The notes beneath the pieces are model-generated. The model was not told the origin of the DNA, searched no databases, and saw only the letters and a list, made by a program, of their open reading frames with translations. From IMG/VR virus record IMGVR_UViG_3300007539_000013, positions 1 through 64,000 of that record: a stretch of DNA of 64,000 bases; one strand, written 5' to 3'. Both the position numbers and the translations under genes were made by a program. The stretch comes from a virus. Numbering within the stretch: the first letter of the stretch is position 1; each line of letters opens with the position of its first letter. Of the stretch, positions 742-22,588 are shown in pieces.

Positions 742-754
742 GAGGATAATAATC

Positions 755-1435: not shown

Positions 1436-1441
1436 GTAACA
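1418..1441 (+). promoter_or_regulatory. 24-bp TGTWACA dyad element, copy 1
   Basis: TGTAACACGAA, six bases (AGGATA), then AGTAACA, ending exactly at the ATG at 1442. The same 24 bases recur identically at 2107-2130. The spacer here also supplies an AAAGGA ribosome site. It belongs to the genome-wide element described under findings. Confidence 0.75.
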
Positions 1442-2111: not shown

Positions 2112-2130
2112 CACGAAAGGATAAGTAACA
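2107..2130 (+). promoter_or_regulatory. 24-bp TGTWACA dyad element, copy 2
   Basis: Identical over all 24 bases to the copy at 1418-1441. Its last base is the A of the ATG at 2130. It overlaps the stop region of the preceding gene, so it sits in essentially no intergenic space. Confidence 0.75.
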
Positions 2131-2665: not shown

Positions 2666-2670
2666 ATAAT

Positions 2671-2856
2671 ATGAAAGTTAGATATATAGCAACCTGCATA
2701 GAGGCAGGCGAAATCTTTTCCACTACATTCGTGTCCGAGGAGACTGATGAGCGGAAGCTCAAGCGTGAGGGCATGGAACTCGCAGCTGGGTGGGGTGGAG
2801 AGTGCATCACTGTAGTGAAGGACGATAACCAAGAAAACTTGGAGGCAGATAAATGA
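2671..2856 (+). CDS. Hypothetical protein, 61 aa
   Basis: I place the start at 2671 because AAGGAGG lies at 2656-2662 in ideal spacing; a longer reading from 2575 would overlap the previous gene. The protein begins MKVRYIATCIEAGE and has an acidic C-terminus. The stop overlaps the next start (ATGA). Function unknown. Confidence 0.65.
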   Translation: MKVRYIATCIEAGEIFSTTFVSEETDERKLKREGMELAAGWGGECITVVKDDNQENLEADK

Positions 2857-3221
2857 GTGACTTAAAAGTAACAAGCGTACGATACTTTGAGACCCGCAGG
2901 GGTACAGGGTATGAGGTAAAAACCAATGTCGATGGCATTGAGATATGGAATGACGGAACAGGAGGGCCGATCTACCTTGAGGGATCCGCTCGTGATCTCC
3001 TGCCATACAAGCACCTGACGGAGAAGGATCTGCACAAGCTTATTGATGAGTTTGAGAGTTGGACAAACACCACAGCATGGAAGGATGCCTACCGAATGTT
3101 GTCCAAAAAGGAAGGCAAGTCATCGGACGATACGGAGCGTGAGATATGTAATATCCAAGACATGAGCAAGGAGGATGCAGTTGTGTACCTGGTAAACGAA
3201 CTAGCAGGGAGGATACTATGA
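2853..3221 (+). CDS. Hypothetical protein, 122 aa
   Basis: ATGA-coupled at both ends inside the same operon. The N-terminal half looks like a small beta sheet (TSVRYFETRRGTGYEVKTNV) and the C-terminal half is helical. No recognisable domain. Confidence 0.65.
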   Translation: MSDLKVTSVRYFETRRGTGYEVKTNVDGIEIWNDGTGGPIYLEGSARDLLPYKHLTEKDLHKLIDEFESWTNTTAWKDAYRMLSKKEGKSSDDTEREICNIQDMSKEDAVVYLVNELAGRIL

Positions 3222-3439
3222 AACCAAAGCCAGCAACCAAAGAGGAGATCGAGAACCTGTTCGTTAAGCAAATGTACAAGGATAGACCGAGGGAAACCCA
3301 CACAGATAATTACACAATGGATTGCCCTGCGTGCAATGCTCCCGCTGAAGGTGAAGGCGTGTTCTTCTCCGACTCAGGTGAGTTAATTAAGAATAACTTT
3401 GTGCAATGCACGAAGTGTGACTGGCACCAAGCATCATGA
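3218..3439 (+). CDS. Small zinc-ribbon protein
   Basis: 73 residues with two Cys pairs, CPAC near residue 34 and CTKC near residue 66, spaced as in a zinc ribbon. A basic helical N-terminus precedes it. Such phage zinc ribbons usually bind nucleic acid or act as transcription adaptors; here that is inference. ATGA overlaps couple it to the genes on both sides, including the TGT-like enzyme that follows. Confidence 0.7.
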   Translation: MKPKPATKEEIENLFVKQMYKDRPRETHTDNYTMDCPACNAPAEGEGVFFSDSGELIKNNFVQCTKCDWHQAS

Positions 3440-4284
3440 AGGAATACTTCGTTGGAACAGATGACTTCCAGCGAGCCCACAAAGTGAATGCCATGATCTC
3501 GGCAAACGCTTTGGTACGGATCAACAATGGAGTCTTGCAAGTACGCAAGGCTCCGATCCGTGTGGGTCGTTGGATGATGGACTCGGGAGCATTCTCCCAA
3601 GTCACAAAGTACGGGGACTTTATTATGTCGCCCGAAGAATATGTACGCATTGCCGTACGCTTTCAGGACTGCGGTGATCTTGCTTGCATCGTAACACAAG
3701 ACTATATGTGTGAGCCTGATGTCATAAGGATGCTAAGGAACAAAGGTAAGGAAGCATCAGTGAGGATACATCAACGCAAAAGCGTGGAAAGGTATAAGCA
3801 GATTGTAATAGAAGCCGAGCGACAAGGCCTTAAGGTTCCAGTCATGCCTGTACTTCAAGGATGGGAAGTCGAGGACTACATTGAGCATTGGCACAGGTTA
3901 TGTGCGGTCAACCGACAGTTAGGTAGGAAGGGTAAAACTGTTGAGGCTTTTGGTTGGAATCATAACCAACCACGATGGGTAGGAATTGGATCCACCTGTA
4001 AGCGTAACAAGAACCCAGAGGTGGTAAGTCAAATACTTGACACCTTGCCATGGGAGTTCATCAATAGCCACGATGTGCGAATACACCTGTTTGGGTACAA
4101 GACCACCGGTCTCAAGTCCGACAAGATCAAAGATCGTATCTACTCAGCAGACTCATTCGCATACGACTTCACCAACAGACTCAATGGTGTGGTGCGTAAG
4201 CGTACAGACAGAATTAAATCAGCAAAAGAATTCGGAAACAAAATCGTACATAACAATGTACAGACCACACTTGCTTTAGCATAA
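3436..4284 (+). CDS. TGT/DpdA-like transglycosylase (7-deazaguanine DNA modification)
   Basis: 282 residues with the landmarks of the tRNA-guanine transglycosylase superfamily. These are MDSGAFS at 48-54 (TGT DSGGFQ), PVLQGW at 138-143, VGIGSTCKR at 182-190, and IHLFG at 216-220 followed by SADSFAY at 237-243. The last resembles archaeal TGT HLFG...FDSAAY and makes Asp239 the likely nucleophile. Family members in phages (DpdA group) exchange guanine in DNA for a 7-deazaguanine to escape restriction. No preQ0 synthesis genes (FolE, QueD, QueE, QueC) are visible in the window, so the precursor would come from the host or from genes outside it. It is the last gene of the left operon and is coupled to a zinc-ribbon gene. 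Confidence 0.8.
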   Translation: MKEYFVGTDDFQRAHKVNAMISANALVRINNGVLQVRKAPIRVGRWMMDSGAFSQVTKYGDFIMSPEEYVRIAVRFQDCGDLACIVTQDYMCEPDVIRMLRNKGKEASVRIHQRKSVERYKQIVIEAERQGLKVPVMPVLQGWEVEDYIEHWHRLCAVNRQLGRKGKTVEAFGWNHNQPRWVGIGSTCKRNKNPEVVSQILDTLPWEFINSHDVRIHLFGYKTTGLKSDKIKDRIYSADSFAYDFTNRLNGVVRKRTDRIKSAKEFGNKIVHNNVQTTLALA

Positions 4285-4522: not shown

Positions 4523-5578
4523 GTGAAAATTTATAAAGAAAAGACAGGGATATACTATGTATCCTTCATGTCTGCCGGTGGAAAGCGGAAAAGAAAGTCG
4601 CTTGAAACTAAAAATTTAAGCACAGCTAAACAGTTGTGCAAGGATGCAAAAATACAAGAGCTTGAGATGGCAGCCCGTGCGGGTGCGTTGCAACGAGAGG
4701 CAATTTCCATGATCGTTGCAGATAGGAAGATCAAGCTATCCGAGTTAATTATTGAGTGGAAAAGATACAAGTCTGACTTAGCTCAATCAGGTAATACAAT
4801 TTATACACAAGAATCATTGATTCGTGCGTTTATAGACTTTGCGGGGGTCGCTCATCTTCATGGGGTAACCAAGGAGATGGTGGCGAATTACATCAACCAG
4901 AGCGGAGATACAAAGGCAGGGAGTCGCGAACAGCGACACTCTGCCTTGCGTTCTTTGTATCAGTTTGCAATCGCTAAGGGTTACACTATCACAAACCCCA
5001 CCAAGCTAGTTGCAGTCGATAAAGGTAAGCTAACTCACAAGCAAAAGGAGAAGGTACCAAGGAAGCCTTTTACCAAGGAGGAGTACAATCAGATTATTGC
5101 ACAAGGTGATCATTTCTTTATGGAGGCAACGGCATTAGCTTGGTGGACAGGTATGAGGCTTTCTGACATTGCAAGACTTGAGTGGGACTCTGTTGATTTT
5201 GAAAGTAAGACTTTAATTGTGCATACCAAAAAAACGGATGCTCGTATTTGCATACCACTTACTCATCCACTTGTTGGACGAGGTGCAGTTCTGCGGATGC
5301 TTGAGAAGTTATCTAAAGAAAAGACGAGCGAAACCTATGTGTTTCCTGAGCAAATGATGATCGATAAAGACCCAACAAAGCGAGCAAAACTATCCGTATA
5401 TTACGGAAGGATGCTCGGGCGAATCGGGATTAGTGGCAAATCTTTTCACTGCCTTCGTCACTCATTTGTTTCAAGATGTCGCGAAGCAGGAAAGACTTTG
5501 GAGCAGATTGCGGTTTGGGTTGGACATTCCTCTGAGAGCACGACGCAGCTATACGATCACCAAGGCTCCAGGATCTAA
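4523..5578 (+). CDS. int: Tyrosine recombinase / integrase 1
   Basis: 351 residues. An N-terminal arm-type domain (MKIYKEKTGIYYVSF) and a core-binding SAM-like domain (about 70-165) precede the catalytic domain. Catalytic residues are visible: Arg212 (TGMRLSD), Lys236 region (HTKKTDAR), His309 and Arg312 (HCLRHSF), His335 (VGHSS) and Tyr344 (TQLYDH). The start must be GTG at 4523, because the ATG two bases earlier is followed by TGA. TAGGTG is the only Shine-Dalgarno-like sequence. This is the second integrase in the window; no tRNA-derived site is seen beside it. It may act in excision, dimer resolution or integration at a non-tRNA site. Confidence 0.9.
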   Translation: MKIYKEKTGIYYVSFMSAGGKRKRKSLETKNLSTAKQLCKDAKIQELEMAARAGALQREAISMIVADRKIKLSELIIEWKRYKSDLAQSGNTIYTQESLIRAFIDFAGVAHLHGVTKEMVANYINQSGDTKAGSREQRHSALRSLYQFAIAKGYTITNPTKLVAVDKGKLTHKQKEKVPRKPFTKEEYNQIIAQGDHFFMEATALAWWTGMRLSDIARLEWDSVDFESKTLIVHTKKTDARICIPLTHPLVGRGAVLRMLEKLSKEKTSETYVFPEQMMIDKDPTKRAKLSVYYGRMLGRIGISGKSFHCLRHSFVSRCREAGKTLEQIAVWVGHSSESTTQLYDHQGSRI

Positions 5579-6270: not shown

Positions 6271-7179
6271 CTATTTAGCTCGTATTGCCTCGATAATTGG
6301 ATCGCATATATCCACCCCATCCTTACTGGACTTACGGCAACTTATCTTAAGCCATACAGCACCAGTAGGTTTGGGAGGCCCTCCCCTTTCGATATGCCAA
6401 CCACCATACCCATCGACATATTCTTCTTTATAGGACGGAACTTTTAGGTGAAGTTGCTCATCATGGTATACCTTTCCCTTATTAGTTAATCTAATACGAG
6501 GGATAGGGAACTGCCACTCGTTGTGCGTATGCCCTGTTGCTACAATATGAGCGTCTGGAAGGTATACAGCTTGCCTGCTTGTTTGAATGGTTCCTTTAGT
6601 AACGGGAGCATCTCCTCCGTAACCATGGTGGTACCACAAATTAATCGCCATTGCTTGACCAGATAAAAGTAGTTGAAATTTCACCCATCCACTAAATCCA
6701 CCTAAATGAATTTTTGATCCATGCCTGTCATTGAGCATAGTAACTAATCGCTCTGTTAAGTTAGTCTCATGCCTTTTGGATATAGCAGTTTCGTGATTAC
6801 CTGGTGCCATGATCGCAAACAGGTCAGCGTACGGGCCGTAAAAGTCGGCTGCCGTTTTCACCAATGAGTCAAGGTAGTCTCCCTTTTGATGTTCAGGCTT
6901 TACATCACGCTTATCAGATCTTGGGTCATACTTACCTTGCATGGCACAAAACAGATCTCCCCCGTCTATGATTATGGCATTTCTTTCCCTAGCTTGGCGA
7001 AGGTGCCTAAGCTCCATGACATTATCAGACTTAGGGTTATCATGATGCCTATCAAAGCTAAGTAATACCCAAAAGGCATCCTTTTCCTTGGTAGACTTAA
7101 GTTGGTGCTTTATAAAATGAACATTTCTGCTCTTCTCAATTACTTCTGTGGTTCCTGGGGGCAGTTTTTTTACTGGCAT
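6271..7179 (-). CDS. Calcineurin-like metallophosphoesterase
   Basis: 302 residues with the metallophosphoesterase signature in order: FDRHHD at 42-47, GGDLF at 73-77, GNHE at 127-130, YHHG at 183-186 and GHTH at 216-219. These bind two metal ions and hydrolyse phosphoesters such as nucleic acids or nucleotides. It lies one base downstream of the giant polyvalent gene in the late operon. That is unusual for a replication nuclease and suggests it acts late or is packaged. Substrate unknown. Confidence 0.85.
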   Translation of the reverse strand: MPVKKLPPGTTEVIEKSRNVHFIKHQLKSTKEKDAFWVLLSFDRHHDNPKSDNVMELRHLRQARERNAIIIDGGDLFCAMQGKYDPRSDKRDVKPEHQKGDYLDSLVKTAADFYGPYADLFAIMAPGNHETAISKRHETNLTERLVTMLNDRHGSKIHLGGFSGWVKFQLLLSGQAMAINLWYHHGYGGDAPVTKGTIQTSRQAVYLPDAHIVATGHTHNEWQFPIPRIRLTNKGKVYHDEQLHLKVPSYKEEYVDGYGGWHIERGGPPKPTGAVWLKISCRKSSKDGVDICDPIIEAIRAK

Positions 7180-7180
7180 T

Positions 7181-10100
7181 TTAGTATCGTATTGGCACTC
7201 CGAGTAATGCCATTCTTCGCAACTGAGACATACTAGGAAGGGCTGATGTATTCCTAGATGTGCCTATTTGGTTCAGGTAAAATTCATGCAAATCTATGTA
7301 ATTTTCTAACATAACTCGATCGTCCTCATCCTGTATCTCAAGAATTCTTTTCCAATCTTGGTCGGAAATCCTACCTTTAGTTATGCCATACCTTATGTTT
7401 CTTTGCCTGAACCTTTCGTGAATGTAATCCTCTGGAGTAGTGTTGATTTTGTTTTCTTCTATGTATACCTTAGCTGCTGAAATTGCTTCTTGGTATTGCC
7501 TGAAAAATTCTGCTTTATCATTCGCATAGGCTGCCCTCTCCATCTGGCGCAGGTTTACGGAAACAGGAGATGGCTTTCCGTATCCTTTGGCGGGAGGTGT
7601 TAATGGCAGACCCATCACCCATGCAGACTTTTTAATAAGATTCTTTGCAGTGAGGTAGTCAGCTACTCTACGCTCCTCTATATCCAAGTCCATAAGGTTG
7701 GATACTACATCCATCTGCTGAATTACTGAACCTAATCCAAGTCCGTAAAGCATTGGGCGAATAACATTCCCGTAGTCTGCCTCGCCCTGGTGGTACCATG
7801 TGCCTAAAGCATCCCGCACATTACGGAATGTATTAAACATGAACAACCTACTGTCTAATGAAAATTCTTTTGCCGCACCAAATGGATCCCCTGTTGCAAA
7901 CATACTATTTGCGACCTCAAACCCCATACCATACACATTACCAGCCCGTGCCAACCTAGAGGTAACTGCATAGATTGTGGACTCCTCATTGCTCATTGCG
8001 AATAATGGGCCGAATACCGGCATCATTGCCCACGGAGTAAGCGGAGGTAAGTTATTTGGCTTACCTACGATCTCCTCGTCATACCAATCTACTAGAAATG
8101 CTGCTGATAATCCCAATGGCATATACACCGCAGATACCAACCCTAGATACTTAAGGAATGCCATGTATGTACCTAGCTCATCTCCTGCCTCCCTACCTAT
8201 AAAGCGATTTGTCTGTGCCATCTTCCAGATTGGCCAACCGAGGAAAATGCCTGCGTAACGCATTAATCCATTATTATATAAAAGTGGAATCTTAGCATTA
8301 AATCCTTCACCAGACACATTGGACATACCAACCTGATTCATCATTAACACGGTATTATGCTCTAATACTGGTGCGTCTGGGTTGATTTGTTTCCGTTGTA
8401 GAAAGTCGTAAGCAAGTCGGGACATACTTGAGGTGCCATTCTCAAGTAGCATATTATTCATATTGTTCCACCCGTCACGCTCACCAATTACCATCTCAGC
8501 TGTCTTGGAGTTATTCATCCCTAACTGCTCTGCGGTGAATTCGATTGGCTCCATAATGTCCAATCCCTTCTCCTCGATGAACTTTGCGATCCTAAGTATT
8601 TCTGCCTCGTATGCCATGGCAGTACCTACGCCTACGGAGTGGTTGATTATACCATTCGCCCACGGGAACAATCCAGTAAACAAAGTAAAAGCATCAAAGG
8701 ACTGCCTGGTTCCATCAGGATTTAGTCTGCGACTATGAGCGATGGCATTTTTAACATTCCTTATGCCCTTTTTGAAGGAATTCATTTTTGTGCCACTTAC
8801 CATTTCTCCATTTGGCCCTACCTGTGTAAGTAGCTCCTGCAGGCTCAAGTTCATTTCTTCCGTACGGAAGTGTGTACTGTTTAGGGATCGGGCAATCCTG
8901 CTTGTCTTTGGTAAATTATAACCAAATGCCTCAATGATTCCACCGAAGGATTGGTTGAACATATTTGCAAGGGCGGCTCCAGTTGCCTTACCTGACATTC
9001 TATTCAATCCACGAAACGCCATTGGGAACTCACCCAATGCCAATGTCTGCCAAAATGAAGACTTGGGGTTATCAAGAACCATTAATGACTGAGTTCCTAG
9101 TAGCTCAAGCAAAACATTAGCGTCACCATAAGCACCGGATATATTACCCTTGCCGTAGTACTGACCAAGTTGGTCAAACACCTTACCGAACTCACGATAG
9201 GTTACTGCATCACTATACAATCTTTCAAATGCCAGCTTTCCGTCCTTCTCACCATAGTCCCGCTCAAGTATTTTATACGCATCACGCTTTACTGCGTTTG
9301 AGTAAAACATCTGAGGTGCCTCATGAACACCCCTTGTGGCTATAGTCATTACATTATTAAATGTGGAGGCACGACCACCCATCTTATCATAAAAGCCCTG
9401 CCCTACATCATTTATTTTCATCCCGTTCCTACCAAACACAGAGGTGGCAACCATCATAGCCAGTCGTATTTGGGTGCTTACTTCGTCATGAATATCGTAG
9501 TAGAAGAACTTCTTGGGTAGCTTGGACTCAATTTGCCTTGAGTCAAGTGATCGGGGTGTATTCTTAATTGCCTCACTTGCCTTCATGACATTGTGAGCCT
9601 CGTTTGCTACTTGATTGTCAGCTCGTACCAGCCTTTTGTACCTAGCATCTAGTTGCTTTGAGAAACTTGCATACCACTCAAACTTTGATTTCTCGACCTG
9701 CTCTGCATCAAGTCCGTCAGTATCTGAGAAGTTATCAAATATATTATCAAGGAAGGTTATCATATCTCCCCCTGACTCTTTCCATGCTAATGCAAATTGG
9801 GAGTTTCCGACAGGGGCATTATCTGGCCCACTAAAGGCAGACCTACGAACCCCACCAAGAAGGAAGGGTTCAACAAACTCTTTTACAACTTGAGGGTCAC
9901 CGTACAATAAGTTGTACATCTCGGTAACAGTTTCTAGGTCATTCTCAGCTGCGCTATTAGCAAGATTCTCCAATAGCTTTATTCGATTCCTGTCAGAATT
10001 AGAGTCTTCCTTGAGTTTATTTCTCATCATTAAAACAACCGATGAGATCGCATGATTGTTTAATGTTCTACTCCATGTTGAAAAACCGAGATCGATTGGT

Positions 10101-13100
10101 CTTCTGTAAAAGTCAACTTGTGATCCATCTAGTTCTGACTGAACCGTAACCTCGTCATCACGAATACGATTACCAAGAATCTCCTCGTTTACATAACGCA
10201 TATAGTTCTTGGCTTCTATTTCCTTCTGTACCCAAAACCGAACTGCATCACGGGCACGATTCATGTCTTTAACATTTTCGAGGTGCATGGGTCTTTCTTC
10301 CCGCATCCACTTCCACATTTGCGAAAAAGCTTCTTCTTCCTGTCCGTAGTACTCGGGATGATTATCAAACCAAAATGCCATATCTTGCCACACCTCTGTG
10401 TATAGGCTCGGGCCATCTAAGCCTAGCTCTTTAGATACCCTAACAAACGCACGGTTTGCTGATATGGAATATGCTTTAACTTTACTTTGTAAGTCACGGG
10501 TTTGCCCAATTACCTGAGTAATAAGTCCGGCAATCTTTTTACCAGCAGGGCCAAACCTACCCATTGCCTGACCAACTGACTCAAGGGATCCAAGATGCCA
10601 ATTTTTTCTTTGCGTAAAGTATTTATCCTTGAGCCCGCCCGTTGGATCCATAAGTGCAACCTGTGCGTTCCTTGCCATGTTTCTAAACCATGGCTGGTCT
10701 CCATACTTCTGAACATTTACAGGATCACGACTGAACATGAGCGTTTCAGATATAGCCTTATTAAAGTCTGGGTTATCAATAGCCCCATTCTTATCTAAGC
10801 TGATAACCATTGTCTTCTTCGTGTACCCCCCGGTAGGCTTGCCATCCGCGTCACGATTTAGTCGCATTACTAAGATCGGTTCACCATCCCCAACATTGGT
10901 AGGCTCAAGCTCACCCATAGCTGCACGAAGACGCTTATACCTAGGGTTAATTGAGTTATGCAACTCCTTGAGCATTACCTTTTCCTTCTGAAGGAGGGTC
11001 TGGAAGTCTACTAAGTCTAAGAGCTTTAACCTCTTTTTCTTTAATCCATTAAGTCTTTTCTCAAGGGATGACTCATATGAGAATCCATCTGATGTGAGGT
11101 CAGCTCTGGTAGCAGTAAATATTTTATTTATATCCCTAAGTAGCTTGGTTCGCTCAGCACCCTCCCCTAGTTTGTCGGTAGACATTCTATACAGGAATAA
11201 GCTTGAGTCCTTTTGCGTTTGAAGAACCTTAACTATAGCCATCCTTAGGTACTTACTCTCAGGTGTGTCTTTCGAGAACTTAGGGTCATTAAGATTCTCA
11301 ATAGCATCATTCATCTCCTGAGGATTAAAGTCATCAAATGTATCAATATCTGTTACCTTACTTAGAATCTTTCCGACATCCCTAGATGTTACGCCATCAA
11401 GATCCATTGCGGTCTTGCGGATTGGCTTCTTTACCAGTTTTGCAATATCTTCAATCTGCTCCCTAGTTAGCTTTTTCATGCTAATAGTAACAGTCTTTGC
11501 GATGTCCTCTGGACTAGCTAGTCCTCGCTTCTGAACATCCTTAAACATCTCGTTGAATTCTTCGATCTGCTGATCTGTGTCCTTAATCTGACTTTCTGCG
11601 TAGTCCAGCCTATCTAAGATGCCAGGGACTTTCTGCTTCCTACCCCTTAACATCATTGAGATGAGGTCAATAGCTTGATTGGTGGCGTGAGTTCTTGTTA
11701 CTTGATTCCTGCCTTGATCTCCAATCCTTATAGATTGCGGATCCTCGATTCCTTGGCTTATTCTTTTATAGTACTTCTCATTACCAACCTTGCCGGGTGC
11801 ATACTTATTTATAAAGTCTTCTGGACTTTCTGTGACCATGCCTTTAGCGGCTAAGTTATTGTATGCTCGTGATAACAATGTAACCACCTCATTAATAGCA
11901 GCTACATCTCCTTCTTGAAATACACGCTCAGAGGCATCTGGGGTGGGGACTGCTTTGAGTGATGCATGGTTAAACTTATAAATATGCTCAAACTGCGTAG
12001 AAAACATCTCAGCTAAATTAGACCCAGCCTTACTGAACACTTCCCTTAATACAGGAAATAATCTGTAATCTAATCTCCATGCGTTATCTGCCATCATGCC
12101 CTGGAAATCAAGAGCGGGATGACGCATAGCTTTCCCCTCGGCTATGCCATTTTTATATTCTTCCAACCTCTCGCTGTACTCACTTGAAGAACTAGCATCA
12201 AATATTTCTTCCGAGGCTTGCGAAGTCACCTCTCCTGCCTTGTGATTATATACAAGACTAGCGAGGTCGGGGTGCATATTTTTTCGGTCAGCACTAATTA
12301 CTCGACCAGATATAGAAGCTAATGCTGATATTTTCCTTAAGTTTTCAAATAATTCTTTAAGCGCACTCCTCTCATGGGGAAGCAAGGTATATCCGTAGGT
12401 CAGATTCCCTTGATCTAAAACTTTTTGTATATCCTTATATCTGGTTGCCAATAAAATCATATGGGCGCCCATATTGGGATTTATTTTACCAATATTATTG
12501 ATCTCCCTGAACTGTTTAAATGCTGCCGTATCTTCAAGGCCAGGCATAAGATACCTTAGGCTTTCCTCATTAAACCCACCTGGGTTTCCATCTATTTTAT
12601 CAACAGCATGCTGTATTTCATGCACAAGTGTTCTAGTAAGGTACGCAGAATAAGCATCCCTTTTTGCTGCGGAGTCTATGCCATACTCCTTAAGGGTATC
12701 CATGTCTATGTCCGTTGCAAAATGGCCATCAGGCTCCAATCTACTTCCGATAAGCATTGGAGAATCCTTAGTCCCCTTTCTTATTTTAATAACACCACCA
12801 CCATATGATCCCAAGGCTTCCATGTCCTTGAAAATGACGGGCATGCTTTCTAATTCTGGATACGATTGAAATAGTTCCGGCCAATCAATTAAGGTGCCTA
12901 AGGTAAAGTTATCGTCAGGTAACTTGTCACCGGACTTCAGGTCTATTAAATCTGTTCCATCATGCAAGATGCTACCCTGCATCCTCATGTTGGTTGGGTC
13001 TATTAGAACTCTCGTTGTTCCATCGAACCATTCGAATGAATATTCTGCCCCTAACGCTTGAATTGCCCCCTTGCCACCAAGCATGTGGAGCTGACCAGTA

Positions 13101-16100
13101 CCCCTGGCATTAAGATCATTTAACACCTCGCGCATTGGGGTAAGCTCTTGAGCCATATTTATAATGGCATCCAACTGTTCGTTTGCCCACTTGAGTGATT
13201 CGGTGCTTGTCTCAAGTCCAAAGATACGTGCAAGGATTGCCTTGATATAATCCCACGCATTGGAAATCCACGATCTACTAATTCCCAGTTTCTTGCGAGT
13301 CTGCTCTGAAAATCTTGTCTTAGATAATGCTCTACGAAACTTTGGATTAGACGCAACCTCCGACCAGAACTCATCTACTGATGACAATCCATGTACATAG
13401 TCTGCGTTACCTAGTTTTTCGCGTAACTCAGGAAGCACAACATTATTCAAGTTAGTGTATATTCTTCCAAGGGTATCCTCATCAACTGCCAGGTCTTTGA
13501 TCTGTGCCATTGAAGCAAAGGTTTCCAAGCTATGCCCGTTTGCTTTTGCGTAACCAATATCCATGGCCAGCTTTGTAGGGGCATGAATAATTTCGTGCAT
13601 TAGCACTCCAGCTAGTTGCTCGTCCGCACTTACATCCAAGTTATCATAATACAGATCGGAAACTAAAATTTTATTTTCAGAGGGAATGTATACAGCTGTG
13701 GAAATTTGATCTTCTTTAGTGGTGGCGTATTTTCTAAAGTCACTCCAGTTTACAAACTGGATAGTCATATTATTGATTAAATCAGAATTATTTCGCTGTA
13801 ATGCCTGAGCCCAAAACTTAGTTGCCTTATTAGCTTTAGGCATCTCAAGGATTCGCTTGAGTGCAAGCTTAGCGGTGAAATTCCTCGTGGTATAAATACC
13901 ATGCTTTATGTGAGGCCCCATGGTGTTGGTTAATGGAGAGCCAACCCTAATCCTTTCCCGCGATTCCATGAATCGCTCCATTGCGTTCTTTGCATCAGCT
14001 AACTGCTCCTCATTACCAGACAAAATAAGGGGATGCTCCCTAGGTAATGCAACCGCACCGATCTGCTTTCTTCTTCTTGAGCGATCCCTCTCAATATCCT
14101 CTTCATTTAAAGGAGTGGTTGGATGCTCCATTTCACGCCCAGTCGTAATGTCAACAAACCCTTTAGGCATGGTTCGCATGTTGGGTAGTGTTTGATTCGA
14201 CTCAGCTGTGTAAATGAGCGGGCCATTACTAAACATGCTCGCTAAATTATTTACAAATAACTTGGTGTTGTAATCCCCGTATATTGAGGACATGCGAGTC
14301 ATTGGAGTTGCCCTTACATTTGTATCAAACATATCAAGACCCTTATCCATCCTATATTGGTCAAGTGCCTTAATTTTAGTTTCAGCAATAATTAACTTAT
14401 CGTCTGTTCCTTTTCTTTTTTTACTTCTACTTTGCTTGCTTGGGCCTACCTTCCATATCTTCTGGTCTCCCAATGGAATTCCGTATGCCTTTGCTAGGCT
14501 TTCCATTATCTGTTTCCTTATCTGGGAGAAACCAGTCCCGACCATAACATTACTATAATCCTTAACGAAACCGATTAGTTCATCTGAGTTTGTAATTTCA
14601 GATATTAATCTACTTATCTGATCTTTAATATCCCGCCCTAGAATTGACTCGAAAGTATTCGCATCATCGACGATCTCAAACATGTCTTGCGCATCTATTT
14701 TTGAAATAGATTTAGGGGATTCTGTGTAATGCTTGAAATAATCCAAAAATAGCGATTTAAATTGAAGGTTGTCTGAGTCGCCTCGCTTAATTGCATCAAG
14801 TATGTCCTGCCTTGCCATTGCTTGATCTCGCTTCTCAGCCATATCCTCAGCTGTACTGGAATAAATTATTACCTCCTCAAATTTCTTGGCTATTGAATTT
14901 ATAAATTTTTCAGCAGGACGAGAATTAATTGCAGGTATACTATAGCTTTTTTCCTTCCTTAGTGGATTCTTTTTTGAGAACTCCACCCAATCATTATACT
15001 CGGGGGAGCCTATTTCAAATTTAGTCCATTCAATATATGTTCTTTGCTCAGTTGGTGAAGGAATAATCACGCCTTCCTGTACAAGCTCTTGATACGCAGC
15101 AACCGACTCTGATCTAATAATCTTCTTGAGTTGTTGCATCTCCTCACTCCTGGTTACATTACCTAGAAGATCGAGGGAGTATTTCTCCAGTCCTGACTCA
15201 ATCTTTCTAAGACCGAGATCCTCCCTGATTTGCTCTATGTTACTCATTAAGTTCTCAACTCCACCAACTACTGTCTTAACATAGTCTTGATCTTGGGTCT
15301 GGTAACCAATCAATCTCCGGTGTATCTCACTATACCTTGATATAGTGTCCCCTACTTTCGGTGAATTTCTTAAAGCAAGATAAAGCAATTCTTTATCTAC
15401 ATCCTGAAACTTTGCCTCTTTGCCAAGGCTTCTTATTTCTTCTTTTACCTCTTTATCCGATACATCAGTATTATCCAGTAAATCAGTGAAGAATGTAACC
15501 TCTGTTGAGCCCTCACCTTTATTTAAAATATCCGTTATTCTTTGCTGAAGCTCGGGTTCAAGTTGATTATATATAGACAGTACGTCCTTCAAGTCTGCCT
15601 CTATGAGACCATTCTGAACACTAAACTTGGTATTTAATAAATTAAGTAAAGACTCAATGGCTCCAGTACTCGTGTCCCTAATGATGATTTTTTCAACCTG
15701 AAGCTCCGAAAGAATCTGACTCAATTCATTTATTCGCTTTTTATAATTCTTTGGCTTTTCCCTTTGAAGTCTTTCTATTTGCTGTATAGCGGAAAACGAC
15801 TCCTTAAGTCTTTTCCCTCTGCCTCCCGAAACCTTAGGGACACTTAGTTTTGGAACGAATTTATCTTCAGTTCTATTATAGGCAGCTACTGCTTGAACCT
15901 CAGGATCGGAGGTAAACTCACCTATATTATTGTACATCAAATCAATCCGATCCGAGTGAGGGGTGAATAATTTGATTTGCCCAATCATGGTGTAGTCTTC
16001 CATGTCCGCGACCACACTATTTCTGTTTGCAGGAATTGAATTATCTTTGTTCCTTTTTACAGAATCAAAGACCCGATTCCCCTTATCATCAAGCTGGGTA

Positions 16101-19100
16101 ATTCTAATGTTTCCTTCTTCCAGTCCGTTCCTTGTTTTGTCAGCCCGTAAAATAACAAGCACCTTCCCCTCGTCCCCTTTGGTCATCGATGGGGAAATTT
16201 TATTGTCTACTGAAAGAATAGTAACCTCTTCTGACTCAAGTGACTTTTCAAGCAATGGAAGGTATGCGTTCTTTTCTTCCGGTATTGGTTTAGTAAACTC
16301 TACATCTCCGATGGTAAAAACCTTGCCATATTCCTCAGACCTAAACTCATAATACCCGCCTGTTGCCTGCCTTCTGTTTTTAAATATACGCTTTACCCCT
16401 TTTGGCCTCTTATTAAATAAAGCATCTTCAAATTCTTCTGGGGTAGAAGCATCTATCTTTTGATACTGACCACTCCTTTGCTCGTACTCATACTCAGCGT
16501 CAGGATCAAAATCAAATGTTTCTGTGGTACCAAGATTATTGGATTGAACCTGGGAAAATGTAGTAACTGCCTTTCCTGTGAAAAGGGGGCGTTTATGATC
16601 AAATGCCCATCTAATTGCATTGAACTGGTCACCATCAAAGTACTTATCATCAATAGCTCCACCTTGAGACTTCTTGGTTTGCTCGGGAACATCCTCCATT
16701 AATTTCTCGCGAGGGATATTACTGCCCACGAACCTAGATGACTGCTCATATTGATGGTTACCGACAATCGTTCCAATCAATGGGCGTATAGGATCATCCC
16801 CCGTGATCTCACTTATTGGTCGAAATACTTCCTCAATCTCATTAGCGGTGTAACCAAGATTGGACATCTCCTGACGGATCGCATTGTCCTCGGTTTCATA
16901 TATACCATCTTGGTTCTTTGTTACGATAATTGACCTTCTTGTGGGGCCGACATTCTCAAAGACAACTCCGTCATTATCTGTAGCTAAATTTCTTTGAGCA
17001 ATCTGGTTATCCTCTTCTGTTACCTGACCGCCCTTCATGTCGATCACTAATGGGTTTTGCAGAAGTACTGTCTTTTGCCCTTCTGTGGTAAATATACCAC
17101 CAAGACCCCCAATGTATCCTCCCTCGGGCGCCTCCTCACTGAATAGTATATTAGAGTCCTCGCCTGCTTGGAACCCACTGTAGATTTGCTTTACCCCGCC
17201 AATCTTACCTCTTTTTGTAAACTTGGTTACATTACCTATTCGCTTACCAGTTTGAAAGTCGTACGCACCTGTTGCATCAATCTCAATCGGGCGAGTGGTT
17301 ATATTTCCACCTTTTACATTTACCTGCTCGGCTTTCATTACTCCTGTGTCTGCATCGTAGGATGTAATGGTGTATGGCTCTGAGCTATTGTTTAGTTTTA
17401 CTTTTTGCCCGACAGGATCGGGAACTTTTACTTTTCTGCCGTCTTCGCTTACTTGACCAAATAATCTTTCTACCTTTTTCTTATTTCGTCTTACTTGCTC
17501 CTTCGCGTTATCTTCTTCAATCTTTGCATCCCTTGCGGTAGGCACACTGTAATTACCATTTGCATCGAGAACATTAAGCTCCTTAAGCTGAGTAAGTAGC
17601 TTTTGCCCCTGCTTGCTTTGACTATTGACCCCTGTGATTTCCGTAAAATCTTTTTTGGGGCTAGCTGACTTACTTGAAATCCCGTTGTTTTTGGAGGCTG
17701 ATGATTCGTACGCTTTAATCGCCTTCTCAAGAGTTTTCCTTTCTTGAGGCTCTACTTTTGTGGTTTTTTCATTGTATGTGAAATCTTCGGTTACTACCGC
17801 AGGTTCATCATCTTCAATGCTTACATCTTCCTCTTCTTCAACCTCTGGTAAGTCTTCTTCCTCGGGAACAAATGCGTCATTAAAAAGACCTTCAGTATCA
17901 AGATCTACCTCAACCCTACTTGTTACTTCTTTATCACCTACCTTAGATTTAGTTTCAATAATAGCAGTATTATCATCAATGGTGGATACAGTTCCGCTAA
18001 TCTTTCTACCTTCCCGAAATACGGCAACGGGATCACCTGGCTTGAACTTAACATCTTCCTCCTCCTTTGCTTCAATTTCCTCAAGGGCAGAATCAATCTC
18101 ATCTGCCATAGCAAAGTCCTGAGGTAAGGTTTGTTCTTGTTCTAATTCGGTTTCATTATCGGACTTCAAGTCATCTCCTGACTTGTCCTTACTGTCCCCG
18201 AATCGAATTGCACCTGCTGCACTAAACTGAACACCACCTAGTGCACCAAGTACACCAGCATCAAACATCTGCTCAAGCTCCTCGCCAGCAAAAGTGAGTT
18301 CACGACCTCTTGCATACTTATCAGCCGCAATGTTTATGAACTCTTGAGCGGCCTCAGTAGCACCCTCAACAAATACACCTTCGGGTAAGTTATACAACAA
18401 TCGCTTAAGGTACTGAGCGGAAGCCTCTTCTCCGATTCCGATAATTTTATTTAACTGCAGACCCGCCGAAAACAGGTCTAAAGAACCAGCTAATGTACCA
18501 AATCCTATGGATAAACTCTTGGCTTTATCTGGAGATACATAGTCCTTATTAGATGGGTCGAGCTGAGTATATGGATATAGCTCGGTGTATATTTCACCCG
18601 TACCTAATCCTATCGAGCTAGTACCTAAGCCTAACTGCATACCGGCCGTACTAAATGTACGCTTGATTGCTTGATCTGCTGTCTCGCTTGCACTCTTTCG
18701 TTTTACTACATTCTTAAGAGTTTCTCGTAGCCTACTCTTAACTACAGCCCGACCAGCTAAACCTCCTGCCCCTGCTCCCAATGCGAATGATCCGGCAGCC
18801 TCTACCGTAGATGGTAATGCCTCACCGAATCCACCCGCTAAAAATCTAGCAACCTCAGCCGGGTTATCCCACCTTACATCGGATGCCCTACTAATAGATG
18901 GGTTGTACTCTGATGCACGCTGTTGTGCCTCTGCCGCACTTTGCATGAGGCTTGCTTCGGCATCCTCAAACCCTAATGTGCCTGCAGCTAATCCAAGACC
19001 GCCCAATGCGGTACTTTTCATGCCTTCGTACCCCCGACCTATACCTTCAGGTATTTCCTTTAATCCACCAAGGAACCCTTCTCGACCAGGCTCTGGTGCA

Positions 19101-19309
19101 TTGACAATATCTAGGTATTGATTGGTAAACCCTTCACCGAACTTATCGGTTATTGAGTCTAACCCGCCCCCTTGATTTCTAGTTTGCTCTGCTAATTGTA
19201 GTAGCAGATCCTTATTGGATAAGGTACTTAGATCAACGCCGATAGCCTGCAAGCGAGCCCGTACTCGGGCAACTTGCGGGTTAAAAATGTCATCATCAAT
19301 AGTTGCCAC
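7181..19309 (-). CDS. Giant polyvalent virion protein, 4042 aa
   Basis: One uninterrupted frame of 12.1 kb. Glycine-rich hydrophobic segments (about 160-350) and the GTGEIYTELYPYTQLDP segment recall the N-termini of phage polyvalent proteins. An ADP-ribosyltransferase-like region is suggested at about 705-800 (YSGFQAGEDSN, GGLGGIFTTE, QNPLVIDMKGG, TDNDGVVFENVG). Two zinc-peptidase motifs follow: HEIIH at 1905-1909 and HEIQH at 2230-2234, the latter resembling the LPD23-type LVHEIQHAVD...GG. Long helical and coiled regions continue to a hydrophobic stretch at about 3710-3770. It is the last of a run of internal-virion-type genes, so I infer it is packaged and injected with the DNA to modify host targets. 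I saw no RNA polymerase motifs of the N4 vRNAP type. Confidence 0.85.
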   Translation of the reverse strand: MATIDDDIFNPQVARVRARLQAIGVDLSTLSNKDLLLQLAEQTRNQGGGLDSITDKFGEGFTNQYLDIVNAPEPGREGFLGGLKEIPEGIGRGYEGMKSTALGGLGLAAGTLGFEDAEASLMQSAAEAQQRASEYNPSISRASDVRWDNPAEVARFLAGGFGEALPSTVEAAGSFALGAGAGGLAGRAVVKSRLRETLKNVVKRKSASETADQAIKRTFSTAGMQLGLGTSSIGLGTGEIYTELYPYTQLDPSNKDYVSPDKAKSLSIGFGTLAGSLDLFSAGLQLNKIIGIGEEASAQYLKRLLYNLPEGVFVEGATEAAQEFINIAADKYARGRELTFAGEELEQMFDAGVLGALGGVQFSAAGAIRFGDSKDKSGDDLKSDNETELEQEQTLPQDFAMADEIDSALEEIEAKEEEDVKFKPGDPVAVFREGRKISGTVSTIDDNTAIIETKSKVGDKEVTSRVEVDLDTEGLFNDAFVPEEEDLPEVEEEEDVSIEDDEPAVVTEDFTYNEKTTKVEPQERKTLEKAIKAYESSASKNNGISSKSASPKKDFTEITGVNSQSKQGQKLLTQLKELNVLDANGNYSVPTARDAKIEEDNAKEQVRRNKKKVERLFGQVSEDGRKVKVPDPVGQKVKLNNSSEPYTITSYDADTGVMKAEQVNVKGGNITTRPIEIDATGAYDFQTGKRIGNVTKFTKRGKIGGVKQIYSGFQAGEDSNILFSEEAPEGGYIGGLGGIFTTEGQKTVLLQNPLVIDMKGGQVTEEDNQIAQRNLATDNDGVVFENVGPTRRSIIVTKNQDGIYETEDNAIRQEMSNLGYTANEIEEVFRPISEITGDDPIRPLIGTIVGNHQYEQSSRFVGSNIPREKLMEDVPEQTKKSQGGAIDDKYFDGDQFNAIRWAFDHKRPLFTGKAVTTFSQVQSNNLGTTETFDFDPDAEYEYEQRSGQYQKIDASTPEEFEDALFNKRPKGVKRIFKNRRQATGGYYEFRSEEYGKVFTIGDVEFTKPIPEEKNAYLPLLEKSLESEEVTILSVDNKISPSMTKGDEGKVLVILRADKTRNGLEEGNIRITQLDDKGNRVFDSVKRNKDNSIPANRNSVVADMEDYTMIGQIKLFTPHSDRIDLMYNNIGEFTSDPEVQAVAAYNRTEDKFVPKLSVPKVSGGRGKRLKESFSAIQQIERLQREKPKNYKKRINELSQILSELQVEKIIIRDTSTGAIESLLNLLNTKFSVQNGLIEADLKDVLSIYNQLEPELQQRITDILNKGEGSTEVTFFTDLLDNTDVSDKEVKEEIRSLGKEAKFQDVDKELLYLALRNSPKVGDTISRYSEIHRRLIGYQTQDQDYVKTVVGGVENLMSNIEQIREDLGLRKIESGLEKYSLDLLGNVTRSEEMQQLKKIIRSESVAAYQELVQEGVIIPSPTEQRTYIEWTKFEIGSPEYNDWVEFSKKNPLRKEKSYSIPAINSRPAEKFINSIAKKFEEVIIYSSTAEDMAEKRDQAMARQDILDAIKRGDSDNLQFKSLFLDYFKHYTESPKSISKIDAQDMFEIVDDANTFESILGRDIKDQISRLISEITNSDELIGFVKDYSNVMVGTGFSQIRKQIMESLAKAYGIPLGDQKIWKVGPSKQSRSKKRKGTDDKLIIAETKIKALDQYRMDKGLDMFDTNVRATPMTRMSSIYGDYNTKLFVNNLASMFSNGPLIYTAESNQTLPNMRTMPKGFVDITTGREMEHPTTPLNEEDIERDRSRRRKQIGAVALPREHPLILSGNEEQLADAKNAMERFMESRERIRVGSPLTNTMGPHIKHGIYTTRNFTAKLALKRILEMPKANKATKFWAQALQRNNSDLINNMTIQFVNWSDFRKYATTKEDQISTAVYIPSENKILVSDLYYDNLDVSADEQLAGVLMHEIIHAPTKLAMDIGYAKANGHSLETFASMAQIKDLAVDEDTLGRIYTNLNNVVLPELREKLGNADYVHGLSSVDEFWSEVASNPKFRRALSKTRFSEQTRKKLGISRSWISNAWDYIKAILARIFGLETSTESLKWANEQLDAIINMAQELTPMREVLNDLNARGTGQLHMLGGKGAIQALGAEYSFEWFDGTTRVLIDPTNMRMQGSILHDGTDLIDLKSGDKLPDDNFTLGTLIDWPELFQSYPELESMPVIFKDMEALGSYGGGVIKIRKGTKDSPMLIGSRLEPDGHFATDIDMDTLKEYGIDSAAKRDAYSAYLTRTLVHEIQHAVDKIDGNPGGFNEESLRYLMPGLEDTAAFKQFREINNIGKINPNMGAHMILLATRYKDIQKVLDQGNLTYGYTLLPHERSALKELFENLRKISALASISGRVISADRKNMHPDLASLVYNHKAGEVTSQASEEIFDASSSSEYSERLEEYKNGIAEGKAMRHPALDFQGMMADNAWRLDYRLFPVLREVFSKAGSNLAEMFSTQFEHIYKFNHASLKAVPTPDASERVFQEGDVAAINEVVTLLSRAYNNLAAKGMVTESPEDFINKYAPGKVGNEKYYKRISQGIEDPQSIRIGDQGRNQVTRTHATNQAIDLISMMLRGRKQKVPGILDRLDYAESQIKDTDQQIEEFNEMFKDVQKRGLASPEDIAKTVTISMKKLTREQIEDIAKLVKKPIRKTAMDLDGVTSRDVGKILSKVTDIDTFDDFNPQEMNDAIENLNDPKFSKDTPESKYLRMAIVKVLQTQKDSSLFLYRMSTDKLGEGAERTKLLRDINKIFTATRADLTSDGFSYESSLEKRLNGLKKKRLKLLDLVDFQTLLQKEKVMLKELHNSINPRYKRLRAAMGELEPTNVGDGEPILVMRLNRDADGKPTGGYTKKTMVISLDKNGAIDNPDFNKAISETLMFSRDPVNVQKYGDQPWFRNMARNAQVALMDPTGGLKDKYFTQRKNWHLGSLESVGQAMGRFGPAGKKIAGLITQVIGQTRDLQSKVKAYSISANRAFVRVSKELGLDGPSLYTEVWQDMAFWFDNHPEYYGQEEEAFSQMWKWMREERPMHLENVKDMNRARDAVRFWVQKEIEAKNYMRYVNEEILGNRIRDDEVTVQSELDGSQVDFYRRPIDLGFSTWSRTLNNHAISSVVLMMRNKLKEDSNSDRNRIKLLENLANSAAENDLETVTEMYNLLYGDPQVVKEFVEPFLLGGVRRSAFSGPDNAPVGNSQFALAWKESGGDMITFLDNIFDNFSDTDGLDAEQVEKSKFEWYASFSKQLDARYKRLVRADNQVANEAHNVMKASEAIKNTPRSLDSRQIESKLPKKFFYYDIHDEVSTQIRLAMMVATSVFGRNGMKINDVGQGFYDKMGGRASTFNNVMTIATRGVHEAPQMFYSNAVKRDAYKILERDYGEKDGKLAFERLYSDAVTYREFGKVFDQLGQYYGKGNISGAYGDANVLLELLGTQSLMVLDNPKSSFWQTLALGEFPMAFRGLNRMSGKATGAALANMFNQSFGGIIEAFGYNLPKTSRIARSLNSTHFRTEEMNLSLQELLTQVGPNGEMVSGTKMNSFKKGIRNVKNAIAHSRRLNPDGTRQSFDAFTLFTGLFPWANGIINHSVGVGTAMAYEAEILRIAKFIEEKGLDIMEPIEFTAEQLGMNNSKTAEMVIGERDGWNNMNNMLLENGTSSMSRLAYDFLQRKQINPDAPVLEHNTVLMMNQVGMSNVSGEGFNAKIPLLYNNGLMRYAGIFLGWPIWKMAQTNRFIGREAGDELGTYMAFLKYLGLVSAVYMPLGLSAAFLVDWYDEEIVGKPNNLPPLTPWAMMPVFGPLFAMSNEESTIYAVTSRLARAGNVYGMGFEVANSMFATGDPFGAAKEFSLDSRLFMFNTFRNVRDALGTWYHQGEADYGNVIRPMLYGLGLGSVIQQMDVVSNLMDLDIEERRVADYLTAKNLIKKSAWVMGLPLTPPAKGYGKPSPVSVNLRQMERAAYANDKAEFFRQYQEAISAAKVYIEENKINTTPEDYIHERFRQRNIRYGITKGRISDQDWKRILEIQDEDDRVMLENYIDLHEFYLNQIGTSRNTSALPSMSQLRRMALLGVPIRY

Positions 19310-19311: not shown

Positions 19312-19929
19312 CTACCTAGCATTAAGGGCGTTCGGTTTGTATCCTACACCGGGGCCTTGCAGTGCTTTGATAAGCACATCGGGCGTGCCTTCAAGCTGTG
19401 GATTTTGTTGTACGATTTGACTCATTCTATCTGGGGATTGTGGCATTTGTTCGGTTGGCATTCTTGGGGAATTTGACATCATTTCTGCGGTCTGAAAAGC
19501 TAGCTCTGGAGCAACGAATCCAACTGCGGTTCCTGCTGGCCCCATCGTTGTCCCCGCTGCCGCACCTAAAAGTCTTGGGGCTATGTATCTACCTAAAAAT
19601 GGAGCAAGCTTTGTCATGCCTTGCTTCATCGCTTGTTGCTCTAATTTAGGGGTAAGCGCGTTGGCGGTAGCTCCTCCGACTGCATAACCAAGTGTTCCAT
19701 CAACCGCACTTGTTGTTTCATCTATTCCAAATTGAGCCTTCTCAACATTATTTCGTTGCTCTTGGAATTCAGCTACACCACTACCTGCCCCTTCAATAAA
19801 CCCAGTCATTGCCTGCATAGCATTGTTGCGTTGCAGTACCTCTTCTACTTTAGCTCTTTGCTCTGGGGTAAGTTTGCTAAAGTCAACACTCATACCGCCA
19901 TGAGTATGTGGTTTGTCGGTTACGCTCAT
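19312..19929 (-). CDS. Putative internal virion protein, 205 aa
   Basis: A Gly/Ala-rich hydrophobic middle (RLLGAAAGTTMGPAGTAVGF at about 118-137) is flanked by Gln-rich helical arms. This composition is typical of podovirus internal core or ejection proteins that cross the cell envelope. It sits three bases upstream of the giant protein gene, with its start overlapping the next upstream gene (ATGA). Assignment is by composition and order, not by a recognised domain. Confidence 0.6.
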   Translation of the reverse strand: MSVTDKPHTHGGMSVDFSKLTPEQRAKVEEVLQRNNAMQAMTGFIEGAGSGVAEFQEQRNNVEKAQFGIDETTSAVDGTLGYAVGGATANALTPKLEQQAMKQGMTKLAPFLGRYIAPRLLGAAAGTTMGPAGTAVGFVAPELAFQTAEMMSNSPRMPTEQMPQSPDRMSQIVQQNPQLEGTPDVLIKALQGPGVGYKPNALNAR

Positions 19930-21218
19930 TGCATCTTTATCGCACCAGCATTCAGGAGCTCTTCATATAACTGCATAGCCTCTTCTATATCCGCAGGACT
20001 ATATAATCTTTGTCCCGTACCTGCCTCGACTGCATTATTTTCTAAGATATTCTTTAGTAAATCATACTGTTCTTGATTGTCTCGATTCCTCTGATTTGTA
20101 GTTAAGGCATTATAACTCGCTGCCATTATTGCAGGTGTGGCAAGTGCTGCAGTTGCTTTTAAACCTGTACCTTTTGGTAGTCTGGTTTTTTTGCCTTCAT
20201 CAGGATCGGAAGTCGGACGAGATGCGTTCTTTAGGTTCTTTGGCTGATTTGCACGAATTCTATCGACCTCCTCGCTTCCAATTTTCTTGAACCTATTTTT
20301 AATGTAAGATGTTGAGGGTAATTGTTTTTGCTGTGAAGCAACTATTGCGTCGCCATCAATATTTACCCTTGGGCCGGTCACCTTACCTTGGGTCTGTTGT
20401 GTATATAACGGGGATTCTATATTATAGAATCGCTGTAAGTTTAGTGCCTTATTGGCATTTGGGTCAGTCGCCTGAAGTGCGTTATTTAAGGGTTTTGCAC
20501 CAGCGGATTGACCTTCAAGTCCAATTTGAGCTGGGGTAACAGGCGTGTCAGGCATAGCCTGTAGCACCTTGCTATAATTAGAACTGGTTAGATTAGGTAG
20601 TCCACCTGGATTGGTTTGGAAGTAATTCTGAGGAAGAAACTTACTGTCTCCCCTTGGTATGAATGTTCCCGTTCCACCTTCAGGTATTCTGAATGACCTA
20701 CTTTTTCCTACATTAGGTGCATCGGGATCTATTTGCGCGTCGAAAGTTGGTTTAACTCCATCAAGCGTTCTGCCCGCAATCTGATCAGCAAGTAAAAGTC
20801 CAGTACCTGTTGCCGCAACTGCAGTAAGTGGGTTTTCTGCAACTAAATTGGCCGCTCCTCCAGGAATATCAAAAAGTATATTACTTTCCCTTTGGAATTC
20901 TGCAAGCGGAGGGGCAGAGCCAGTGACAAACTCTCCAGCATTTTTTGCATTTATACTGATTTGGTCGTCTTGGTATGAGTTGCCTTTTGCTACATAGATC
21001 TTTCCATTCACCATGTCGGCAGCCCTTGGGTCGCTACCTAAGCTTGCTTTAACTTCTCCCTGTAGCTCCTGAAGTCTTTGATTAAATTTAAGATTCGCAC
21101 CCTGCCTTACTTCATCAGACAGGCGATCATTCATCATGATCACATAGTAACTATCGAGTGCCTGATCGACTACCTCGACCTCTCCTCCATTTGATAACGC
21201 TATTACTGCTTTCTTCAT
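19926..21218 (-). CDS. Putative internal virion protein, 430 aa
   Basis: The N-terminal 90 residues look globular. A long Pro/Gly/Asn-rich linker (about 130-350) follows, with hydrophobic patches such as LTAVAATGTGLLLADQIAG and ATAALATPAIMAASYNAL. The C-terminus is an acidic helix. It overlaps neighbours by ATGA on both sides within the four-gene internal protein run. It is possibly a DNA-ejection or head-core component; no specific family recognised. Confidence 0.6.
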   Translation of the reverse strand: MKKAVIALSNGGEVEVVDQALDSYYVIMMNDRLSDEVRQGANLKFNQRLQELQGEVKASLGSDPRAADMVNGKIYVAKGNSYQDDQISINAKNAGEFVTGSAPPLAEFQRESNILFDIPGGAANLVAENPLTAVAATGTGLLLADQIAGRTLDGVKPTFDAQIDPDAPNVGKSRSFRIPEGGTGTFIPRGDSKFLPQNYFQTNPGGLPNLTSSNYSKVLQAMPDTPVTPAQIGLEGQSAGAKPLNNALQATDPNANKALNLQRFYNIESPLYTQQTQGKVTGPRVNIDGDAIVASQQKQLPSTSYIKNRFKKIGSEEVDRIRANQPKNLKNASRPTSDPDEGKKTRLPKGTGLKATAALATPAIMAASYNALTTNQRNRDNQEQYDLLKNILENNAVEAGTGQRLYSPADIEEAMQLYEELLNAGAIKMQ

Positions 21219-22588
21219 CGCATTCCCTTAAAGCCTGGTGGTAACTGCGGTGTAAACCCTTCTGAGCCACCTTGTGGTGCAGTTATTGCATTGCCGGGAG
21301 GTGTGGTCGAAGGGGCATACTTGCCTTTGTATTGAAACGCCATCCTCTCAAGTTCATTCATTTGCGTATTAGTTGCCTGTATGCCAGAGGTCACAAATTG
21401 ATTCATTGAATCCCGTAAACTTGCATTTTCAGGATTACTATAAAATGCCTCCTTTGCCTTATTTATGGCTACAGGATTTGGATTTCCATTTGGCTTGTAA
21501 AGGGTGGTTATATCTATGCCTTTTATCCTTGAGGCATTTGACATAATAAACGCAGCTGTAAGCTCATCTTCCCTTTCAGTCTGACCCCCGCTCTTCCATG
21601 CAATAACCTTGGCGAGCATGTCATCAACTACTGGTTGGATATTTGCTGCGCGATTTGCTTCGTCTTGACGCTCAAGTGATTTCAGCTCGAAACTTTTATC
21701 AACATTATACTTCGTTCCCTCAAGTTGTATTTTGGCAACCTCAAGCATACGCTTATTAGCATCATCTGCTTTGAGCATTTCCGCATCTAGCTCAGCGTAC
21801 TGAAGATCTATATTGTCATCAAATTGTCTTTTCTTTTCAGCTAATTGATCGTAACCAAGACCAATCTCGGCTTCCATGATGCCAACCTTTGCCTCATCAA
21901 TTTTATTAGCCATGTCCGCAATCCTGTTGCGGGTCTTATCCTCCATTCCGGCAATCTTAAATTGATTGTCAATCTGAGCAAATGCTACGCGCTCCTGAGA
22001 CTCAAGTTTCTTTTCCGTTTGCTCACCCTGAAAAGTTCGATTCTTTTCGTTTTCTACTGCGTTCCAGACTCTTTGTGCTTCAGCCTCACTAAGGTCTAAT
22101 CCTTTAGATTCTTTTATCCATTCTTGCTGTGAATTAAATTGCCTTGCGTTTTCAATCCTTGATTTTTCCTTTTCACTAAGTTGAGCAAAGCTGATTTTTT
22201 CAGTAGAGGCGATTGACTCTTTCTGCATATCTTCAGCTGACTTCATGCGTGCATATCCCAACTCTTTAGTGAGTGCGTTTTGCGCATCTGCCATTGCCAT
22301 GCGACCCTCGAGATCCATCTTCTGTCTTTGCATGGCTTGATCCGCATCATATGTGGACTGAGTCATTGCTTCGGTAAATCTTTCGCGCGCCCGTAAATCA
22401 GAGGCAGGATCAATATTGATCATATTTGCATTCTGCCCATTGATCTGTTGACCAATATTTAGTGCATTACCCCGTAGGTAATCAGCTACTTGACCACCAG
22501 ACATCCCGGGGCCTTGAGTAACTTGGAATTGACTAGGTTGGGCGACCTGCCTACCTGACGCAAACTGGGCTGTTAATGCTTGTGCCAT
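21215..22588 (-). CDS. Putative internal virion protein with long coiled coil, 457 aa
   Basis: Residues about 70-320 are a nearly continuous charged helix rich in Ala, Glu, Lys and Gln, as in long coiled coils. A Pro/Gly-rich C-terminal tail (TPPGNAITAPQGGSEGF) follows. It occupies the position of the helical internal core proteins of podoviruses between tail genes and the giant injected protein. No enzymatic motif seen. Confidence 0.65.
   Translation of the reverse strand: MAQALTAQFASGRQVAQPSQFQVTQGPGMSGGQVADYLRGNALNIGQQINGQNANMINIDPASDLRARERFTEAMTQSTYDADQAMQRQKMDLEGRMAMADAQNALTKELGYARMKSAEDMQKESIASTEKISFAQLSEKEKSRIENARQFNSQQEWIKESKGLDLSEAEAQRVWNAVENEKNRTFQGEQTEKKLESQERVAFAQIDNQFKIAGMEDKTRNRIADMANKIDEAKVGIMEAEIGLGYDQLAEKKRQFDDNIDLQYAELDAEMLKADDANKRMLEVAKIQLEGTKYNVDKSFELKSLERQDEANRAANIQPVVDDMLAKVIAWKSGGQTEREDELTAAFIMSNASRIKGIDITTLYKPNGNPNPVAINKAKEAFYSNPENASLRDSMNQFVTSGIQATNTQMNELERMAFQYKGKYAPSTTPPGNAITAPQGGSEGFTPQLPPGFKGMR

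Follow-up and report, generated by a model that had tools for sequence, protein, structure and literature searches.

Polyvalent proteins of phages were proposed from domain architecture and genomic context (PMC5512222). That work describes aa 2130-2448 of the N4 virion RNA polymerase (vRNAP) as a metallopeptidase that is a hub domain among polyvalent proteins, and fusions of the same metallopeptidase with ADP-ribosyltransferase (ART) domains as injected polyvalent proteins; recombinational cassette exchange was raised only as a possibility (PMC5512222). Here we analyze a gene for a giant protein in the first 64,000 nucleotides (the window) of the 79,741-base virus record IMGVR_UViG_3300007539_000013. 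The reading we favor, at a probability of about 0.7, is that an unclassified temperate phage, probably podovirus-like, packages the giant in its virion and ejects it as a polyvalent protein whose interchangeable parts are set in a constant frame.

The preliminary description of this DNA reported a single 4042-residue frame, and the frame is exactly as described: 4042 codons without a stop, beginning with GTG, on the minus strand, which had gone unstated. The two reported HExxH motifs, HEIIH at residue 1905 and HEIQH at residue 2230, are also present and are both kept in relatives. Shuffled versions of the protein contain 0.027 HExxH motifs on average, and two together occurred in 0 of 2000 shuffles. 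Pfam and NCBIfam searches with the whole protein gave no match above cut-off, and DNA and whole-protein searches of isolated phages at E 1e-5 found no relative of either half. The features of the locus are collected in Table 1.

Table 1. Features of the giant gene and its surroundings (window coordinates; residues refer to the giant protein).
Feature	Coordinates	Strand	Residues	Remarks
Calcineurin-like phosphoesterase/exonuclease type gene	6271-7179	minus		directly downstream of the giant gene
Giant gene	7181-19309	minus	1-4042	4042 aa, GTG start
Constant C-terminal part	7184-11956	minus	2452-4042	about 1590 aa
Slot B	11954-13114	minus	2066-2452	LPD23/DUF6782-type metallopeptidase by profile comparison
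HEIQH	12608-12622	minus	2230-2234	in slot B
Peptidase 1 domain	13112-14095	minus	1739-2066	profile matches to giants of other phages
HEIIH	13583-13597	minus	1905-1909	in peptidase 1
Slot A	14240-17392	minus	640-1690	variable
ART-like stretch	16910-17197	minus	705-800	
Constant N-terminal part	17390-19309	minus	1-640	EGaTEaaQE motif
Four unnamed genes	19312-24204	minus		directly upstream of the giant gene; several syntenic with relatives
Tail-assembly-chaperone-like gene	24685-25128			PF16778; about 5 kb upstream of the giant gene
Large protein	29153-33823	minus		lectin-like similarity
Portal	47734-50013	minus		same strand as the giant gene
Terminase	50571-52112	minus		same strand as the giant gene
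Integrase gene	53407-54411			adjoins tRNA-Arg
tRNA-Arg(ACG)	54540-54615			3' half canonical, 5' half degenerate

The giant gene is the last of a late operon that contains terminase and portal. The late genes on its strand run in the order terminase, portal, structural and tail-fibre-like genes, the lectin-like gene, four unnamed genes, and the giant gene, a linkage to late and packaging genes that is expected of polyvalent proteins. The four unnamed genes have no family match of note, and three of them are found at about 25-48% identity in L007/L008. The tRNA-Arg(ACG) beside the integrase is probably an attP site through which the phage integrates into a tRNA-Arg gene of its host, and the phage genome encodes a DnaB helicase and DpdA. 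Because the integrase lies beside a 3'-half tRNA-Arg and DnaB and DpdA are present, the phage is likely to be temperate and to have a bacterial host. The DpdA-type DNA-modification gene (3.4e-25) is at 3436-4284, and a second, tyrosine-type integrase (6.5e-23) is at 4523-5578.

The window matches, at 99%, a contig of a bin deposited as 'uncultured archaeon' whose contents include an archaeal S19e ribosomal protein and contigs of archaeal type. A related contig of the bin, C46, starts in the 3' half of a tRNA-Pro, for which the bin contains no further good match; we take this half to be of bacterial type (G72, A73). An archaeal host was rejected because the C46 tRNA-Pro half is bacterial-type and the window encodes DnaB, and the match to the bin is probably due to binning contamination. 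Several contigs of the bin (G001; L016/L047, L044, L046, L035, L037) belong to the giant's phage family and carry at least three different giants; they represent related phages of one family in a single sample. The same bin also holds L056, with a 4179-aa open frame that starts at base 4986 on the plus strand, contains one HELPH, and cannot be aligned to the window giant.

About 17 related giants were found. Viral contigs scanned for sequence patterns, with progressively wider alignments, yielded L001-L003, L008, L068-L078, L081, and L082, and three more giants are encoded on contigs C21, C6, and C36 of the bin. The portal is 54-73% identical among the records that hold it, which identifies the giant-bearing relatives as one phage family by sequence. 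The portal copy in one record is broken (G011, the record of L073; bases 1519-3797, fragmented by several stops), owing either to faulty assembly or to decay of the gene. The gene directly downstream of the giant is 84-94% identical across the phages, even where the adjoining giants are overall only about 21-23% identical; the divergence is therefore confined to the giant. Alignment of the giants divides the protein into the five successive parts listed in Table 1: a constant N-terminal part, slot A, peptidase 1, slot B, and a constant C-terminal part. Among members, the slots differ in length by tens to hundreds of residues.

The two ends of the protein are its constant parts. Residues 1-640 are conserved in all members that reach this region. 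Their profile matches gp51 of phage tf (4.8e-7) and the vRNAP of phage pVco-5 (3e-6), both annotated virion proteins, compared to 1.4e-3 for the best shuffle; the match amounts to about 16-18 bits around the EGaTEaaQE motif. The N-terminal part is presumed to be the packaging/ejection part. Residues 2452-4042 are likewise present in all members that reach them, and no credible relative of this part was found in Pfam, PHROGs, the PDB, isolated phages, or the giants of N4-like and crAss-like phages.

The HEIIH motif lies in a domain with recognizable relatives. A peptidase 1 profile built from nine members matches the giants of the crAss-like phages cr55_1 (5e-18) and cr116_1 (4e-5), the Schitoviridae giant of Acinetobacter phage Ab2712 (7e-6), and a Helicobacter prophage giant (8e-6), with a best shuffle of 0.23. 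These matches identify peptidase 1 as a homolog of the metallopeptidase of N4-like vRNAPs and crAss-like giant proteins, and it sits C-terminal to the position of the polymerase, as in the vRNAPs. All eight aligned sequences have the zincin arrangement of HExxH with a downstream DE[FL]. The corresponding arrangement in slot B, HE[IM]QH with a downstream GE[VI]T, is found in five of five sequences, and the downstream glutamate is presumed to be the third zinc ligand in both domains.

Slot B was assigned by profile alignment to two phage proteins, gp60 of F116 (97.7%, E 2e-12) and gp3 of EBPR podovirus 3 (98.7%, E 2.7e-16). Pfam finds LPD23 and DUF6782 ('putative metallopeptidase') in both, the DUF6782 scores falling below cut-off, and finds neither family in the window segment. 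It is through this comparison that slot B is identified as an LPD23/DUF6782-type metallopeptidase. Thus, comparison with known metallopeptidase domains places a metallopeptidase at each HExxH position named in the preliminary description. Some relatives also carry an LPD23-type peptidase in slot B, and L073 and L072 carry a Kinase-PolyVal domain there (8e-21 and 1.4e-10). A kinase in slot B of L071 was seen by eye only; Pfam gave no match.

The giant of C21 captures the exchange of a slot between near-identical genes. It is 98-99% identical to the window giant outside the middle, but over residues 2076-2460 it shares 41% identity with the window and 93% with L001. The slot B region of C21 gave no blastn alignment with the window gene. 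The C21 peptidase 1 block is about equidistant from the two (0.67 and 0.71). The simplest reading of these alignments is that the C21 middle block was acquired by recombination, which would have swapped the slot B cassette for that of another lineage. This C21/window pair is the one case seen among near-identical genes. The portal and the downstream gene stay conserved while slot B is exchanged.

Slot A is common to the window, L001, and C21 only, and the other members have no match to it. The preliminary description placed an ART-like region within it at residues 705-800, and this claim survives in part. The short motifs of ART-PolyVal are visible by eye, in order, and a profile of 12 phage ART-PolyVal sequences scores the window at 14.6 bits compared to a maximum of 6.6 bits among 350 scored shuffles. 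The match is confined to residues about 750-800, the second half of the domain. Pfam gave nothing for the stretch even at E = 10, a search for ART-PolyVal (PF18760) at E 10 was negative for both the window genome and its relatives, and an hhalign comparison of the region with the F116 ART alone did not exceed shuffles. The catalytic residues are also missing: the histidine of YHGT and the glutamate of REfVVF both align with S in the window, and the same positions in L001 are R and E, with a profile score of only 7.3 bits. Our modestly confident assignment is that the stretch is probably a decayed, at best partial, and probably inactive ART.

Profile searches and structure prediction had both been suggested as checks on these domains. 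The profile comparisons recovered the two peptidase homologies and part of the ART, but Pfam gave nothing above cut-off for the window protein. Structure prediction was uninformative. The AlphaFold models were poor, with a pLDDT of 37.7 for slot A (3 sequences) and 54.5 for the two peptidases (8 sequences), and a PDB fold search with them gave no significant match, although zinc peptidases were among the rows of best probability. The earlier proposal of a polyvalent protein was right in kind, as indicated by the peptidase homologies, the Kinase-PolyVal domains of relatives, and the late-operon position; its ART component is weak. Disparate domains do occur in one polypeptide, namely two unrelated types of metallopeptidase and the weak ART, with a kinase in relatives, and the disparity within the window giant itself rests on that ART.

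A purely mechanical ejection protein would build or line a trans-envelope channel, and its peptidases would serve only to process the giant as the virion matures or to open the envelope, with no effector role against the host. The gene position and the N-terminal similarity to podovirus virion proteins are consistent with such a protein, and self-processing has been proposed for peptidases of this kind (PMC5512222). The peptidase profile also has a marginal, nonsignificant match to the ejection protein gp48 of PhiM1 (E 0.046), which we did not accept as a relative. However, nothing about a structural role would require unrelated enzymes, such as the kinase, in the slots of relatives, or slots that are exchanged while neighboring genes are conserved, and we consider this explanation unlikely.

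The order of parts is also that of the N4 vRNAP, with slot A similar in length to the polymerase and located between the N-terminal part and the metallopeptidase, so slot A could be a divergent N4-type polymerase. The N4-type polymerase profile scored neither the window protein nor any relative above shuffles, whereas a Roseovarius podovirus used as the positive control gave 7.7e-12. By this comparison the giant has no detectable T7-like single-subunit RNA polymerase domain. A hidden RNA polymerase was rejected as barely credible. Only slightly less improbable is the tape-measure protein of a long-tailed phage carrying enzyme domains, which is suggested by the size of the giant, the tail-assembly-chaperone-like gene upstream, and the precedent of phage P23-45, whose 5002-aa tape measure is fused to an enzyme (PMC10770324). 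The late genes scanned include no tail tube, terminator, or sheath, the N-terminal part matches podovirus proteins, and slots that differ so much in length among members also speak against a tape measure.

The polyvalent protein we favor would work as follows. Its constant N- and C-terminal parts would pack the giant close to the portal and bring it into the cell together with the DNA; injection is suggested by the gene position and by the weak resemblance of the N-terminal part to virion proteins of podoviruses. Three segments would lie between them: slot A, which here contains the decayed ART; a permanent zincin metallopeptidase of the N4-vRNAP type; and slot B, occupied here by the LPD23/DUF6782-type metallopeptidase and in relatives by Kinase-PolyVal. 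Phages of the family would recombine the middle block into and out of the constant frame, as the one gene pair indicates. Peptidase 1 may cut the giant, and the slot domains so released may target host proteins. That the giant is packaged, is ejected, and has enzyme activity is predicted from sequence and context, and self-processing or opening of the envelope by the peptidases would fit as well as the disarming of host defence put forward earlier. More tentatively, at somewhat less than even odds, the ejected giant may be an invariant chassis for delivery, fitted with effector slots whose cargo is exchanged by recombination between phages. The 1590-aa C-terminal part would then be a new kind of ejection domain, and the exchange of peptidase for peptidase or peptidase for kinase would resemble the swapping of toxin tips in polymorphic toxins.

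The chassis-and-slot layout and the documented exchange are a stronger finding than the ART first noted. The near-identical gene pair documents a cassette exchange previously only suspected for polyvalent proteins. The set of related phages distinguishes constant from variable parts. Parts that may serve delivery can thereby be told apart from those that may act as effectors, and it becomes possible to test which segment packages and ejects the protein and which acts on the host.

Each known system shares a different portion of this architecture. Gp51 of Pseudomonas phage tf, a LUZ24-type virion protein, has the N-terminal part with its EGATEAAQE motif, but it is 1021 aa long and lacks HExxH. 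The crAss-like giants cr55_1 and cr116_1 have the peptidase 1-homologous metallopeptidase and both carry an ART, but they resemble the window giant in neither of its constant parts. The N4-like vRNAPs of the Schitoviridae (Acinetobacter phage Ab2712, Klebsiella phage P184, and Vibrio phage pVco-5) contain a polymerase, whereas none is detectable in the window giant, and the C-terminal parts are unrelated. They resemble the window giant in being the giant last late gene, in the metallopeptidase homologous to peptidase 1, and in the weak N-terminal similarity. The polyvalent protein gp60 of Pseudomonas phage F116 differs in its length of 1649 aa, its domain order, and its intact ART, and neither constant part of the window giant was found in it. 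Like the window giant, F116 gp60 is encoded by a late gene, there preceding the lysis genes, and combines an LPD23/DUF6782-type peptidase with a second HExxH and ART-PolyVal.
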